DNA of 64,000 nt, taken from Streptococcus parasuis. Its GTDB lineage: Bacteria; Bacillota; Bacilli; Lactobacillales; Streptococcaceae. Location: contig NZ_AP024276.1 in the NCBI RefSeq assembly GCF_021654455.1, forward strand, positions 1,922,001-1,986,000, given 5' to 3'. Every line of letters begins with the position of its first letter. The stretch's first letter is position 1. Below the pieces are notes generated by a model, which saw only the letters and a program-made list of their open reading frames with translations, ran no database searches and was not told where the DNA came from. This document shows, one piece after another, positions 29,971 to 35,025 of this stretch. A program made the position numbers and the translations under genes.

Positions 29971-30048
29971 TCTTCTAGGAGGGCGCAAGATAGCTTGCAC
30001 CTCCTATCATTGCTTATCAACCAAGAAAAACAAGAAAGAGAGAGCGAA

Positions 30049-31674
30049 ATGACAATAGACAAGCGTAAAGTAGTTTATCAAATCTACCCAAAATCTTACA
30101 AGGACACAACTGGAAATGGTCTCGGAGATCTACGGGGGATTATCGAAAAACTTCCTTATCTAAAAGAGCTAGGCATTGACATGATTTGGCTCAACCCTTT
30201 CTATCCAAGTCCACAACGAGATAACGGCTATGATATATCAGACTATACCGCAGTAAACCCTGATTTTGGTACAATGGAGGACTTTGAAGAGATGGTAGCC
30301 GTTGGTCAGGAATTAGGTATTGAATTCATGCTGGATATGGTCCTTAACCACTGCTCAACAGACCACGAATGGTTCCAAAAAGCCTTGGCTGGCGACAAAT
30401 ATTACCAGGACTTCTTTATCTTGAGAGACCAACCCACTGACTGGGTTTCTAAGTTTGGTGGAAATGCCTGGGCTCCTTTCGGAGACACTGGAAAATACTA
30501 TCTGCACCTTTTTGACGTCACCCAAGCGGACCTCAACTGGCGGAATCCCCATGTCCGTGAAGAACTCTTTAAGGTGGTCAATTTCTGGAAAGACAAAGGC
30601 GTTAAAGGATTCCGATTCGATGTCATTAACCTGATTGGTAAAGACGAAGTCTTAGAAGACTGTCCTATTAATGATGGAAAACCAGCCTACACAGACCGGC
30701 CCATCACCCACGACTATCTCAAAATGATGAACAATGCAACCTTTGGTAGTGAAGAAGGGTTTATGACAGTCGGTGAAATGTCAGCGACTACCATTGACAA
30801 CTGTATATTATATACAGCACCTGAGCGTGAAGAGTTGTCCATGGCCTTCAACTTCCACCACCTGAAAGTGGATTACAAAGATGGTCAAAAGTGGACTATT
30901 ATGGACTTTGACTTTGAGGAACTCAAACGACTCTTCCACACATGGGGAGAGGAAATGTCTATCGGAAATGGTTGGAATGCTCTTTTCTATAACAATCATG
31001 ATCAACCACGCGCCCTCAATCGCTTTGTGGATGTGGAGAATTTCAGAAACGAAGGAGCGACCATGCTGGCAGCCTCTATTCACCTTTCACGTGGCACTCC
31101 TTACATCTACATGGGCGAGGAAATCGGTATGATTGACCCAGACTACGACAGTATGGATGACTATGTGGACGTGGAGTCTATCAATGCCTACCAAATGCTA
31201 TTAGATCAAGGAAATAGCACCGAACAAGCCTTTAAGATAATTCAAGCAAAATCGCGTGACAATTCACGTACACCAATGCAGTGGGATTCGAGCGACAACG
31301 CTGGATTCTCAACAGCTACGCCTTGGCTAAAGGCTGGAAAATCTTTCCCAACAATTAACGTTGAAAATGAGAAAACTGGCCCAATCTTCACATTCTATCA
31401 AGAATTGATTCGACTACGAAAAAAACTCCCTATCATTTCTGAAGGTGATTATCGAGCCACCTATCAAGAAAGCGATAAGGTTTATGCCTTTGAGCGTTTG
31501 CGAAACGGCGAAAAATTACTTGTCCTAAATAATTTCTTCGCAGAAGAAGTTAATATAGATCTTACTGATGAATATGCTCAGGGGCAAGTCCTCATCAGCA
31601 ACTATCCTGACAACAAACTAGGCAAAAAAATCATTCTCAAACCTTACCAAGCATTGGCGATTTTGGTCAACTAA
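30049..31674 (+). CDS. treC: Alpha,alpha-phosphotrehalase (GH13)
   Basis: 541 residues. It cleaves trehalose-6-phosphate to glucose and glucose-6-phosphate. GH13 regions visible: MVLNHCSTDHEWF, nucleophile Asp in GFRFDVINLIGKDE, acid/base Glu in TVGEMSATT, and NNHDQPRALNR. Start chosen at 30049, where MTIDKRKVVYQIYPKSYKD matches the family; the frame opens at 29995 without a good site. It is 78 bases downstream of treB. A terminator follows at once, and an IS element is inserted right after it. Confidence 0.95.
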   Translation: MTIDKRKVVYQIYPKSYKDTTGNGLGDLRGIIEKLPYLKELGIDMIWLNPFYPSPQRDNGYDISDYTAVNPDFGTMEDFEEMVAVGQELGIEFMLDMVLNHCSTDHEWFQKALAGDKYYQDFFILRDQPTDWVSKFGGNAWAPFGDTGKYYLHLFDVTQADLNWRNPHVREELFKVVNFWKDKGVKGFRFDVINLIGKDEVLEDCPINDGKPAYTDRPITHDYLKMMNNATFGSEEGFMTVGEMSATTIDNCILYTAPEREELSMAFNFHHLKVDYKDGQKWTIMDFDFEELKRLFHTWGEEMSIGNGWNALFYNNHDQPRALNRFVDVENFRNEGATMLAASIHLSRGTPYIYMGEEIGMIDPDYDSMDDYVDVESINAYQMLLDQGNSTEQAFKIIQAKSRDNSRTPMQWDSSDNAGFSTATPWLKAGKSFPTINVENEKTGPIFTFYQELIRLRKKLPIISEGDYRATYQESDKVYAFERLRNGEKLLVLNNFFAEEVNIDLTDEYAQGQVLISNYPDNKLGKKIILKPYQALAILVN

Positions 31675-31677
31675 TTA

Positions 31678-31703
31678 TGAAAAGAGGAGCGAGCTCCTCT
31701 TTT
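31678..31703. terminator. treC terminator hairpin (left copy of a 26-bp duplication)
   Basis: Palindrome GAAAAGAGGAGC-GA-GCTCCTCTTTTC-like, directly after the treC stop. The same 26 bases recur at 33252-33277 on the other side of the IS, in the same orientation. Confidence 0.8.
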
Positions 31704-33251
31704 CAGATTGAAGACAAAGTCGTTAGAATTGTATTTCTAACGGCTTTTTCATATGTAAAGTAGTATAATAGAGATAGGAATACTAGCTAATAAACAGCGG
31801 GAGAATCGCTATGTTACACAAAGAAAATCCAGACTACAATCGCGGTCAATTTGGTTTCTACAGTTTAGATGACCTTGTTTCTCAAGATCATCTCCTTCGT
31901 CAAATAGAGGAAGCTATTGACTTCTCCTTTATCTATGACTTAGTCGCAGATAGCTATAGCGATGATACAGGGCGTCCTAGTCTTGACCCTATTCTGCTCA
32001 TTAAAATTCCAATCCTTCAGTGTCTCTTCGGCATTCGTTCCATGCGTCAAACCATTAAGGAAATCGAAGTCAACACTGCCTACCGTTGGTTTCTTGGTCT
32101 TCGACTGGATGATAAGGTGCCTCATTTCACTACCTACGGAAAGAACTATGTCCGTCGTTTTCAAGATAGACAAGTTATTGAAGGCATTTTCACCCATATC
32201 TTAGGTCTCTGCGTCAATGCAGGCTTCATAGATCCAACAGAAATTTTCATTGACGGTACCCATATCAAGGCTGCGGCGAATAATCGTAAATTCATCAATC
32301 GTGAAATTGAAAAGCAAGCCAAGTTTATGAGTGACCAGCTAGAGATTGAAATTAACAGGGATAGAGAAAAGCATGCAAAAAAGCCGCTAGGGCCCGCAAA
32401 AGAGGAGGGACCCATCGCTAAGAAAATTTCTACAACTGACCCTGAAAGTGGCTGGTTTCATAAAGGGGACCATAAGGAAGTATTTGCTTATACAGCTCAG
32501 GTTGCTTGTGACAAGCATGGTTGGGCTCTGGCTTATAGCGTGGAGGCTGGCAATGTCCATGACAGCCAGGCCTTTCCTGTACTCTTCGCTAAACTCCAAC
32601 CCTTTCAGCCTAGCTTTCTCGTTGCCGATTCTGGCTATAAGACCCCAAGTATCGCTCGCTTCCTCCTAGAACAAGAGATTACTCCAGTCTTTCCGTATAC
32701 ACGACCGAAAGGAAAGAAAGGGAAACTACGCTCGAAGGATTTTGTCTATGATGAATACTATGACTGTTATATCTGTCCTGAGAATCAGGTCTTAACCTAT
32801 CGCACTACAACCAGAGAAGGTTATCGGGAATATAAGAGTGACTCAGCTATCTGTGCTACTTGTCCACTTCTATCAATTTGTACAGAAAGCAAGAACAAGC
32901 AGAAAGTGGTAACTCGACACATTTGGAAAGAGGCTTTAGAAAGCTGTGAAGAGATTCGGCACAGGAAAGGTATGAAGGAGCTCTACCAGAAGCGGAAAGA
33001 AACCATTGAACGCCTCTTTGGGACAGCCAAAGAGTACCACAATCTTCGTTACACAAGAGAGAAAGGCAAGTCCAAAATGGAAGATAAGGTTGGACTGACT
33101 TTGGCGTGTTTAAATCTCAAGAAATTGGTAAAAATGAGGGCAGGGAAGCCTTTTTATATTGTACAAATAGCCACGATTCTGGCAAAAAGACTGACTATCA
33201 GACCAATAAACAGAAAAAGACAAACATCAGTCGAGATGTTTGTCTTCATTC
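31704..33251 (+). mobile_element. IS1182-family insertion sequence, about 1.55 kb
   Basis: Bounded by inverted ends CAGATTGAAGACAAA (left) and its near-match at right (reverse strand CAGAATGAAGACAAA), and flanked by 26-base direct copies of the treC terminator hairpin. It holds one full-length transposase and a short internal terminator near its left end. Family assignment is from the transposase. The exact boundaries depend on whether the hairpins are counted as target or as element ends. Confidence 0.75.
31721..31742 (+). terminator. Internal terminator at the IS left end
   Basis: Stem CGTTAGAA / TTCTAACG with a 6-base loop followed by GGCTTTTTC, upstream of the transposase promoter (TATAAT at 31764-31769). 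It would shield the transposase from treC read-through. Confidence 0.6.
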
Positions 33252-33289
33252 TGAAAAGAGGAGCGAGCTCCTCTTTTGTGATACAATGA
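31811..33289 (+). CDS. IS1182 family transposase
   Basis: 492 residues. The N-terminal domain (LIKIPILQCLFGIRSMRQTI) and DDE residues are visible in EIFIDGTHIKAAANNRK, FLVADSGYKTPSIARFL and KETIERLFGTAKEYHNLRYT, with Cys residues YICPENQ and CATCPLLSIC of the zinc-ribbon-like insert between. No frameshift, so it looks active. The final residues KRGASSSFVIQ are read through the right-hand terminator hairpin and the stop lies about 12 bases beyond it, outside the element as bounded by the inverted ends. Confidence 0.9.
   Translation: MLHKENPDYNRGQFGFYSLDDLVSQDHLLRQIEEAIDFSFIYDLVADSYSDDTGRPSLDPILLIKIPILQCLFGIRSMRQTIKEIEVNTAYRWFLGLRLDDKVPHFTTYGKNYVRRFQDRQVIEGIFTHILGLCVNAGFIDPTEIFIDGTHIKAAANNRKFINREIEKQAKFMSDQLEIEINRDREKHAKKPLGPAKEEGPIAKKISTTDPESGWFHKGDHKEVFAYTAQVACDKHGWALAYSVEAGNVHDSQAFPVLFAKLQPFQPSFLVADSGYKTPSIARFLLEQEITPVFPYTRPKGKKGKLRSKDFVYDEYYDCYICPENQVLTYRTTTREGYREYKSDSAICATCPLLSICTESKNKQKVVTRHIWKEALESCEEIRHRKGMKELYQKRKETIERLFGTAKEYHNLRYTREKGKSKMEDKVGLTLACLNLKKLVKMRAGKPFYIVQIATILAKRLTIRPINRKRQTSVEMFVFILKRGASSSFVIQ
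33252..33277. repeat. Right copy of the duplicated treC terminator hairpin
   Basis: Identical over 26 bases to 31678-31703 and in direct orientation. It flanks the IS and could be a target duplication of the whole terminator. Confidence 0.75.
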
Positions 33290-33312
33290 AACAAAAAAGA
33301 AAAGGAAAAAAC

Positions 33313-33675
33313 ATGCTCCAAGAATTTTTGAACAAGGTAAAGAATCCTGTCCTGAAGGATAAACTGGCAACAATCTTCACTCAAATCCAGCAGGAATTTC
33401 CAACACTAACCACAGAAATCAAATGGAACCAGCCCATGTTTATTATGGATGGAACCTTCATCATTGGTTTCTCTGCTGCCAAGTCTCATATTTCCATCGC
33501 ACCTGAAACGGTCACTATGGAAACCTTTGCCCAGGACATTCAGGAAGCGGGCTACGAGGCGACTTCCAACCTCTTCAAAATCAAGGAAGATCAAGAGGTC
33601 AACTGGGACCTACTCCACAATATTATCGCCTTTAATATGGAGGAAAAGAAAGGTTATGACAAGTTTTGGAGATAG
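33313..33675 (+). CDS. DUF1801 / iron-chaperone-like (YdhG) protein
   Basis: 120 residues. It starts MLQEFLNKVKNPVLKDKLAT and contains TTEIKWNQPMFIMDGTFIIG and ISIAPETVTMETFAQDIQEA, the DUF1801 (YdhG/frataxin-like fold) pattern. AAAGGAAAA lies just upstream of the ATG at 33313; the frame open back to 33106 only overlaps the transposase. The function in streptococci is unproven; Bacillus relatives bind iron. Before the IS arrived it lay directly downstream of treC. Confidence 0.75.
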   Translation: MLQEFLNKVKNPVLKDKLATIFTQIQQEFPTLTTEIKWNQPMFIMDGTFIIGFSAAKSHISIAPETVTMETFAQDIQEAGYEATSNLFKIKEDQEVNWDLLHNIIAFNMEEKKGYDKFWR

Positions 33676-33786: not shown

Positions 33787-35025
33787 TTACTGATTAAAGG
33801 ACACATGAACATGATCGTAGTGGTTTTCAGTAACACTACCACGGTCTGGCATTAAGTTCCAAGTGTATGCTGGTCCATAAATACTATCAAAAGGTGCGTA
33901 GAAACGTTGTTTCCAAATAATGTAGCTGATATTTTTGGATGAAATATTGGCTACTGCATAGGCAGCGACCTGATCACCCAAAGCCGAACTTTGAGGAACC
34001 ATAAAGTCAATTGCCAATCCTTTACCATGATCCCCTGTGTCACCCGCACGGTAACCTGAAAATGACGTGATCCCAAAGGCATTAGCTACCTCAGCTCGGA
34101 ATGCTGCAACCTGAGGTTGGAGTCCAACATCATATGAACTAGTACTTGATGAAATTGTTGAAACCGTAGCAACTGTTGTTGCAGTTGACGCGGCTGGTAT
34201 AGGAGTCACAGGGGCTGCCTCTACAGAGTTCACCTCTGCGATCGGTGCTTCCTCTACTGGGGTTTCTGCTGGAACTTCTGTGACTAGTGCTTCCTCTACT
34301 GGGGTTTCTGCTGGAACTTCTGTGACTGGCGCTTCCTCTACTGGAGTTTCTGCCGGAACTTCTGTGACTGGCGCTTCCTCTACTGGAGTTTCAACTGAGA
34401 CTTCTGTAACTTGAACTTCTTCTACCAGGGTTTCTTCCAATGGCGTTTCTGCAGGGACTTCTGTGACTGGTGCTTCCTCTACTGGAGTTTCAACTGAGAC
34501 TTCTGTAACTGAAGCTGATGAACTAGGCGCATCCGTTGACTCCAGAGGGATAACTGTATCATCTACTGTAATTTCATTAGCCGCAATATCGACTGTTGCT
34601 TGCACAGTATTTTCAGCGGCTTCTTCTTGTACAGGTGCTTGAATTTCAATTTGCGTTACTTGATGATTTTGATCAACCGTAGTAGTCAAAACTGTATCAG
34701 GGAAAATCAAATTCACATCTGCAATTTGGTTAATCTGAGCTAAAATATCCAAATCAATATTCATAGCCTCGGCAATCGCACTTAAGGTATCACCATACTT
34801 TACAGTATAGGTTAATTTTCCACCTTTATCTTCGATTTCTTGGCTAATCTCACTTACACTACGGGGAGTCCAATCCAATGCAAAAACATTTGGAGCAGTA
34901 ATCCCAGTAGCAAATAATGAAAGGGCCAATGATGATGTGTAAAGCACCTTCTTATTGGCTTTCATAACAGGTGTTTTTCTCTTGCGGCGCATATATTGTG
35001 ATTTTGATAACTTCTTACGTTTCAT
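33787..35025 (-). CDS. Secreted LysM protein with Glu-Thr-Pro repeats and a metallopeptidase-like C-terminal domain
   Basis: 412 residues. A basic N-terminus and a signal-like segment (LYTSSLALSLFATGITAPNV, about 28-47), one LysM (LTYTVKYGDTLSAIAEAMNI, about 71-116), a linker of six 14-residue repeats of the form VTEVPAETPVEEAP (173-261), and a C-terminal domain (about 298-412). That domain has GDHGKGLAIDFMV and HYDHVHVSF, an H..D..HxH pattern like VanY/M15 or ARB-type peptidoglycan enzymes. Cell-wall binding is secure; enzyme activity is inferred. GAAAAGGAATG lies upstream of the ATG. Confidence 0.8.
   Translation of the reverse strand: MKRKKLSKSQYMRRKRKTPVMKANKKVLYTSSLALSLFATGITAPNVFALDWTPRSVSEISQEIEDKGGKLTYTVKYGDTLSAIAEAMNIDLDILAQINQIADVNLIFPDTVLTTTVDQNHQVTQIEIQAPVQEEAAENTVQATVDIAANEITVDDTVIPLESTDAPSSSASVTEVSVETPVEEAPVTEVPAETPLEETLVEEVQVTEVSVETPVEEAPVTEVPAETPVEEAPVTEVPAETPVEEALVTEVPAETPVEEAPIAEVNSVEAAPVTPIPAASTATTVATVSTISSSTSSYDVGLQPQVAAFRAEVANAFGITSFSGYRAGDTGDHGKGLAIDFMVPQSSALGDQVAAYAVANISSKNISYIIWKQRFYAPFDSIYGPAYTWNLMPDRGSVTENHYDHVHVSFNQ
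34243..34509 (-). repeat. 42-nt in-frame tandem repeat array (VNTR) in the LysM gene
   Basis: Six copies of a 42-base unit coding VTEV(S/P)(V/A)ETP(V/L)EE(A/T)(P/L), with one 5-residue spacer after the second. Copies are close in DNA as well as protein, so slippage could change their number between strains. Confidence 0.8.

Follow-up and report, generated by a model that had tools for sequence, protein, structure and literature searches.

An insertion sequence lying directly behind a treC-like gene, with the terminator hairpin of that gene on both of its sides, raises the question of whether the hairpin belongs to the element or to its target, and of how a complete stem-loop could come to be duplicated. 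The target duplications of DDE transposons are normally of near-fixed length, with the active sites held at a fixed spacing on B-form DNA. The locus is part of a window of 64,000 nucleotides, the whole stretch of DNA analyzed here (C1:1922001-1986000 of a host genome of 2,197,342 bp in one contig). The treC-like gene of the alpha-amylase family (29995..31674, + strand; PF00128), whose terminator is the target, ends with its stop codon at 31672-31674, and the hairpin, comprising a 10-bp stem and a 4-nt loop and identified by its sequence and DNA fold (-7.9 kcal/mol, z -2.78), starts 5 nt further on (31680..31703, + strand). An identical copy in direct orientation follows the element (33254..33277, + strand), and these are exactly the two + strand occurrences in the window of the 24-bp hairpin AAAAGAGGAGCGAGCTCCTCTTTT. 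The original prediction described a 26-base hairpin on both sides in direct orientation; the direct duplication was confirmed, whereas its length had to be corrected to 24 bp. The dinucleotide TG precedes both copies, on the left by chance, and was included in the 26 bases; the duplication proper is 24 bp because the right-hand TG constitutes the last two bases of the element's CTG end. Since the base order of the loop is direct, the two copies represent a direct repeat rather than longer inverted ends of the element.

The element itself is an IS1182-family insertion sequence of 1550 bp (31704..33253, + strand), delimited by its inverted ends, its target duplication and two further genomic copies. 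Its left terminal inverted repeat CAGATTGAAGACAAA (31704..31718, + strand) and right terminal inverted repeat CAGAATGAAGACAAA (33239..33253, - strand) agree at 14 of 15 bases and directly abut the hairpin copies at 31703 and 33254, as had been predicted from the sequence. Position 33289, earlier given as the end of the locus, belongs to the stop codon of the transposase frame and lies outside the element, which ends at 33253. Between the inverted repeats there is a single reading frame of 481 codons, a feature of the IS1182 family, encoding the transposase (31811..33253, + strand; NF033551, DUF772, DDE_Tnp_1 and DDE_Tnp_1_6). Its NF033551 score of 446.4 bits exceeds the curated IS1182-family cut-off of 270, in agreement with the family assignment made beforehand. 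The residues assigned to the DDE catalytic triad (D148, D273 and E400) were each conserved at 1.00 of 92 aligned rows, and K407 at 0.98. A consensus scan additionally detected, on the - strand, terminator-like hairpins within the element close to either end (31721-31742 and 33216-33247), the latter overlapping the right end, and the region 31500-33500 had no Rfam match at gathering scores.

A whole-genome search in which all 22 candidates were scored revealed three copies of the element, 95-100% identical. The two further copies are located one between direct copies of CAAAAACCCTTGTGTTTCAAGGGTTTTT and one between direct copies of ACAGAAACATCAATGTGTTTCTGT, so that the genome holds three copies at three different hairpins, each of which is wholly duplicated; as single-stranded DNA, the three target hairpins gave z values of -2.78, -4.18 and -3.70. 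Because the hairpins differ among these copies, the hairpin is part of the target and not of the element.

The same question was addressed at empty sites, by searching the joined flanks of four sites (L001, which is the window site, L003, L004 and L007) in 284 genomes of the genus. Among the matches listed for the window site, those of six genomes covered the joined site up to base 264, starting at base 1 or 8. The four genomes aligned base by base (81-92% identical) all carried a single hairpin, which was identical in the closest genome and slightly changed in the other three. One hairpin was likewise observed at the L004 site in two aligned genomes (99.6 and 98.1% identity) and at the L007 site in twenty (91-97%), the latter with a T-run longer by one T. 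In phage Javan87 the element lies between two 26-bp hairpins and Javan90 has one hairpin; their joined flanks are identical over 426 bp, the difference consisting of the element and one hairpin copy. For a Providencia plasmid site with a 21-bp hairpin, the empty counterpart was 94% identical (one aligned of 14 matching records), and for an Enterococcus pELF site 98% (one of 101), although this last comparison was less clean, with seven gap positions, six of which lie near the hairpin. More distant relatives could not serve as empty sites, their treC ends showing at that spot a hairpin of other sequence or none: by eye, a single hairpin of other sequence was present in L038, L041 and L045, and none in L034-L037. 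The outcome anticipated for strains lacking the element, an empty site with a single hairpin, was thus obtained at the window, L004 and L007 sites and in Javan90.

These observations bear on two rival explanations. The window hairpins abut the inverted ends and, together with them, look like a 39-bp inverted repeat, as would be expected if the hairpin belonged to the element as an extension of its ends and were the same in every copy. Against this stand the unrelated hairpins at the other copies in the same genome, the variation of the duplicated sequences from site to site, the empty sites that already possess the hairpin, and the direct rather than inverted order of the loop, so that we give this explanation next to no credence. 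The observation originally named as refuting the target duplication, an identical hairpin at the other copies regardless of site, was not made: the hairpins differ between sites in this genome and in the survey described below. Alternatively, two hairpins could have existed beforehand, or the element could have arrived by recombination between duplicated terminators; flanks do get reshuffled by recombination between copies, as in the pair L031/L183 discussed below, but the aligned empty sites have one hairpin, and Javan87 and Javan90 differ over 426 bp solely by the element and one hairpin copy, which leaves this course of events a negligible chance.

The generality of the pattern was examined in a survey of 242 fetched loci, in which both element ends were found in 193 and not in 49. 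The loci were derived from a search of the genus (197 genomes, two candidates scored per genome), from which the loci offered and 40 further places were taken, from named records (the best 80 of 401 loci encoding a relative) and from a family search across the phylum (199 genomes), which contributed 30 loci offered and 60 chosen places, mostly multi-copy sets; the copies in the host genome were counted among the survey elements. From the resulting 194 element rows, we dropped 17 repeated sites with exact flanks, 17 with less than 45 bp of flank and 45 with a weak end (a score below 14/15), three of which had a repeat of at least 8 bp. This left 115 unique clear-ended elements, among which slightly changed copies of one insertion (L022 and L028) count twice. 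The closest relatives among the best 80 of the 401 named loci were from Streptococcus, namely S. orisratti (95%), S. suis (93%) and S. plurextorum (98%), by identity of the best segment, and the genus of the host genome was assigned on this basis. A copy from S. suis (L005/L097), 96% identical to the window element, extends over 1600 bp, 50 bp above the usual 1550.

Direct repeats flanked 79 of the 115 elements and measured 8-38 bp, with a median of 24. By a rule requiring the outer positions (up to six) to be all paired except at most one, 76 of these 79 repeats were palindromic, compared with 312 of 23,700 windows of the same lengths taken from the flanks and the element (1.3%); on this comparison, chance is excluded as the source of the palindromic repeat in the window. 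The three failures (L002, L109 and L254) were read as hairpins that are shifted by a few bases or imperfect. Two repeats that pass, L127 (8 bp) and L019 (11 bp, the 3' part of the hairpin only), are yet unconvincing as whole hairpins and pass because the rule is lenient for short repeats. Independently of repeats, the element ends were scanned for hairpins of at least six Watson-Crick pairs with one mismatch and a loop of 3-12. At 210 of the 230 ends, a hairpin began at a distance of 0 to +2 nt from the element, against 2.5% in Markov shuffles of the same flanks; it was found at 153 of the 158 ends with a repeat and at 57 of the 72 ends without. Hairpins anchored one base inside the element were observed at 24 of 230 ends, and each anchor from +10 to +39 accounted for at most 7 of 230. 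A scan permitting G-T pairs was rejected in favor of the one reported here because its background in shuffles was 28% and wobble pairing with the T-tract produced a spurious peak one base within the element boundary.

The joints also exhibited a preference in sequence: A was the first duplicated base at 145 of the 158 ends, and the next base was a purine (A or G) at 141. At 51 of the 79 sites, one or more additional pairs outside the duplication could lengthen the stem, which places the joint near the foot of the hairpin and not always at the outermost possible pair. The window transposase frame has no stop inside the element and runs to a TGA in the flank (33287-33289). Of the 115 elements, 98 have an open frame of sufficient length, the other 17 being set aside. 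The frame stops inside the element in 54 of the 98 and continues further into the flank in 26, as in the window; in the remaining 18, a TGA stop is composed of the element's last two bases and the target's first base A, so that the preference for A at the joint also completes the transposase gene in some lineages.

Concerning which hairpins are hit, 75 sites had at least 450 bp of flank and could be placed relative to reading frames of at least 80 codons. The target hairpin was located within 80 nt past the end of a reading frame at 66 of these sites (15% of random positions in the same stretches) and inside a frame at three (53% of random positions). A T-run, defined as at least six T in eight bases, was present on at least one side at 59 of the 79 repeat-bearing sites and on neither side at 20. 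Relative to the T-run, the insertion had no strong orientation bias (right 34, left 26, tie 19). Most targets are accordingly terminator-like by their position after frames and their T-runs, and a T-run is not required. As judged from these sequences, the target has been shown to be the hairpin as a structure, and most, not all, such hairpins resemble terminators. The original suggestion that the element recognizes terminator hairpins was supported, as both checks proposed with it came out in its favor, with the refinement that the hairpin is targeted as a structure, found at 210 of 230 ends, and that a T-run is present at 59 of 79 sites and not at all of them.

We consider it probable that the transposase selects a palindrome by its secondary structure, joins the element at the 5' feet and leaves the whole hairpin copied. 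The target would be a palindrome, perfect or nearly so, that can fold into a hairpin; in most cases it would be an intrinsic terminator, and it is presumably present as an extruded cruciform. The element's 3' ends (...CTG-3') would each be joined to one target strand where the hairpin has its 5' foot, in most cases just ahead of an A, and repair of the gaps would then copy the whole hairpin, giving one intact copy per side. In a cruciform both 5' feet would be found at the junction, their separation being independent of stem length, and for this reason one enzyme geometry could give duplications of 8-38 bp; the length of the duplication is most likely set by the hairpin because both strands are joined at the 5' feet. 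The sequence comparisons establish the choice of hairpins, the exact ends, the duplication of the whole hairpin, the empty sites with a single hairpin and the recurrence across a clade; the cruciform and the order of steps we infer from them. At the treC site, the left copy would keep terminating the upstream gene and the right copy would stop transcription leaving the element, and it is plausible, as originally proposed, that the insertion is nearly neutral for treC.

Other explanations account for part of these data. The target palindromes are symmetric in sequence as well as in structure, and the A-purine common to the joints indicates some reading of sequence, in line with a transposase dimer that binds the inverted arms on linear B-form DNA and cuts outside them without an extruded cruciform. 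The spacing of the arms and the length of the duplication vary, however, from 8 to 38 bp, which is hard to reconcile with one protein geometry, and the listed duplicated sequences have no arm sequence in common; we regard this route as unlikely. The concentration of targets just past reading frames (66 of 75) and the T-runs at 59 of 79 sites would also suit an enzyme sensing transcription termination, through a paused polymerase, an R-loop or a single-stranded hairpin, rather than the DNA hairpin itself. Such sensing appears somewhat less probable still, given the 20 sites lacking a T-run on either side, the three targets inside frames, the symmetric cutting of both strands about the palindrome and the absence of a strong orientation relative to the T-run. 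Random insertion followed by selection, with survivors situated after genes where hairpins are common, would be in keeping with the mere three of 75 targets in reading frames; it explains the intergenic placement, but not why 210 of 230 ends lie flush with a hairpin foot or why the duplication varies in length and matches the hairpin, and is thus very improbable.

A repeat of at least 8 bp was absent in 36 of the 115 elements, at whose 72 ends hairpins are nevertheless frequent, as given above. Hairpins at both ends were found in 21 of these 36, and in 20 of the 21, all but L142, the two hairpins differ by eye; in L142 and L178, the repeats look, by eye, like ones that have since diverged. The inverted neighbors L031 and L183 (G167:C1) carry exactly each other's hairpins, an exchange that, on these sequences, is the signature of an inversion between both copies. 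The two sequences that flank L022, and likewise those that flank L017, are widely separated in several other genomes or fall on separate contigs, in a comparison in which one side is often only 70-85% identical. In view of the reciprocal swap and the split flanks, a separate mode of insertion for the two-hairpin copies without a repeat is not favored, and rearrangement between copies explains the cases examined, namely L031/L183, L022 and L017.

Hairpin-duplicating elements were observed in Streptococcus, Enterococcus, Lachnospiraceae and other Clostridia, in streptococcal phages and on the Providencia plasmid, and multi-copy sets with whole hairpins comprised G304a (3 of 3 copies), G422 (3 of 3) and G320 (4 of 5). 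In a tree of 45 transposases, a single branch (98/98) separates the 26 rows that have whole-hairpin repeats from all others. Rows were selected for the tree according to their outcome, and several branches are long; since the hairpin rows were picked among copies showing a repeat, the tree speaks for those chosen rows only. To the extent that the sequences and their tree can tell, whole-hairpin duplication is the rule of a clade and not a single curiosity. The six rows that lack a repeat cluster with ISSau3 (100/99), which is the nearest on the tree to IS1272 by host and name only, IS1272 not being among the rows; in the ISSau3 record (L340), no clear ends were found.

Other IS1182-family members in the survey had different outcomes. 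Repeats of 4-7 bp were found in G464a, G304b, G466b, G298, G399, G353, G369 and two of four copies of G372, and no repeat or one of chance size in G433, G286a, G378, the G430/G438 set and the second IS1182-family element of the host genome; a search for ends in G286c and G466 found none. Four copies in G464 (L234 and L261-L263) represent another IS1182 subgroup, with 4-bp repeats CCCA/TCCA at CCATG sites, which read CCATGG in three of the four and so make up a short target. Two copies in the same genome (L265 and L266), the only ones of their kind observed, have a 9-10-bp repeat corresponding approximately to the loop of a hairpin whose stem arms lie beyond the repeat. The host genome's second IS1182-family element, which is 1794 bp long and lacks a target repeat, occurs within the loci C1:205338-208279 (L259) and C1:882558-885499 (L260). 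At the L260 site, five aligned relatives all have the hairpin CCTAGATTCCTCTAGGT or a near copy of it exactly at the junction, where it is missing here.

The targeting of hairpins, many of them terminators, has been described for IS1272/TnSha1 of staphylococci (Furi et al. 2016, PMC4923244; Wan et al. 2017, PMC5678879), and some IS1182-family members are stated to target palindromes (Siguier et al. 2015, as cited in Furi, PMC4923244, and Wan, PMC5678879). According to the available passages of these papers, IS1272/TnSha1 resembles the window element in its IS1182-family transposase and in hairpin targets that have no common primary sequence and include many terminators, but removes the hairpin wholly or partly and makes no target duplication, whereas the window element keeps and duplicates it. 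Of the two features of such stem-loop replacement (RST), the hairpin target was therefore found here (210 of 230 ends) and the loss of the hairpin was not. The scheme of Wan et al. (2017, PMC5678879, Fig. 13) has three branches: in (a) joining at the 3' feet causes the hairpin to be lost, in (b) the hairpin is duplicated in full and in (c) the loop is duplicated. Pathway b is drawn as theoretical, and the available passages give no natural example. The present elements have the same whole hairpin directly repeated on both sides (76 of 79 repeats palindromic), as natural insertions over a clade and with empty sites, where pathway b in those passages is theoretical, and the joint positions agree with Wan's 5'-foot joining; judged by its sequences, the hairpin-duplicating clade appears to follow this pathway. 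The missing hairpin at the L260 site is apparently a case of the removal published for IS1272, and one genome thus appears, from the alignments, to hold both hairpin-duplicating and hairpin-removing members of the family. A wider reading, that there is a clade whose target-duplication length is set by target structure through joining at cruciform 5' feet, a second that joins at the 3' feet with removal of the hairpin, and a further lineage that duplicates approximately the loop, such that all three of Wan's outcomes occur in one family and two in the window's genome, seems to us about evenly balanced, the removal being represented by one site and the loop case by two copies.

Within the IS1182 family in general, the window element has the expected NF033551 transposase, one reading frame and terminal inverted repeats, while other members have short repeats of 4-7 bp (4 bp in ISPse1 and in ISCaa15), loop-sized ones (L265 and L266) or none. 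ISEfa7 from Enterococcus plasmids (L334 by its record label, with L336 similar and unlabelled) has about 49% transposase identity and the same type of ends; these copies have no repeat and, by eye, a hairpin after the right end. Beyond this family, IS1397 and ISPpu9/10 insert in REP or other palindromic units and are specific for one repeat family. They share with the window element the palindrome as target, and we know of no duplication of a whole palindrome by them. ISfinder lists repeats up to about 60 bp for the IS1182 family, and its curators may therefore have seen such repeats. The literature search, which covered papers in PMC, yielded no recognized report of whole-hairpin duplication as an observed, clade-wide rule, and the available passages of papers on Paracoccus, Amoebophilus, Haloquadratum and S. 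mitis do not describe it. Hence, within the literature searched, hairpin targeting by the IS1182 family is already published and the new part is whole-hairpin duplication as a clade-wide rule. A duplication length that follows the hairpin offers a natural readout of structure-specific strand transfer, and the clade provides a direct test of Wan's model, which previously existed on paper only. The co-occurrence of duplicating and apparently removing relatives in one genome could allow the switch between outcomes to be mapped to transposase residues. An element that inserts after genes and leaves a hairpin on both sides can, in addition, spread while sparing host genes.

Downstream of the insertion site, a DUF1801 gene (33313..33675, + strand; PF08818) has, by eye, a similar start after treC in L037. 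Further along the window, a protein of 412 residues is encoded on the - strand (33787-35025); it contains a long tandem repeat of PVEEAPVTEVPAET type and looks, by eye, like a secreted cell-wall protein.
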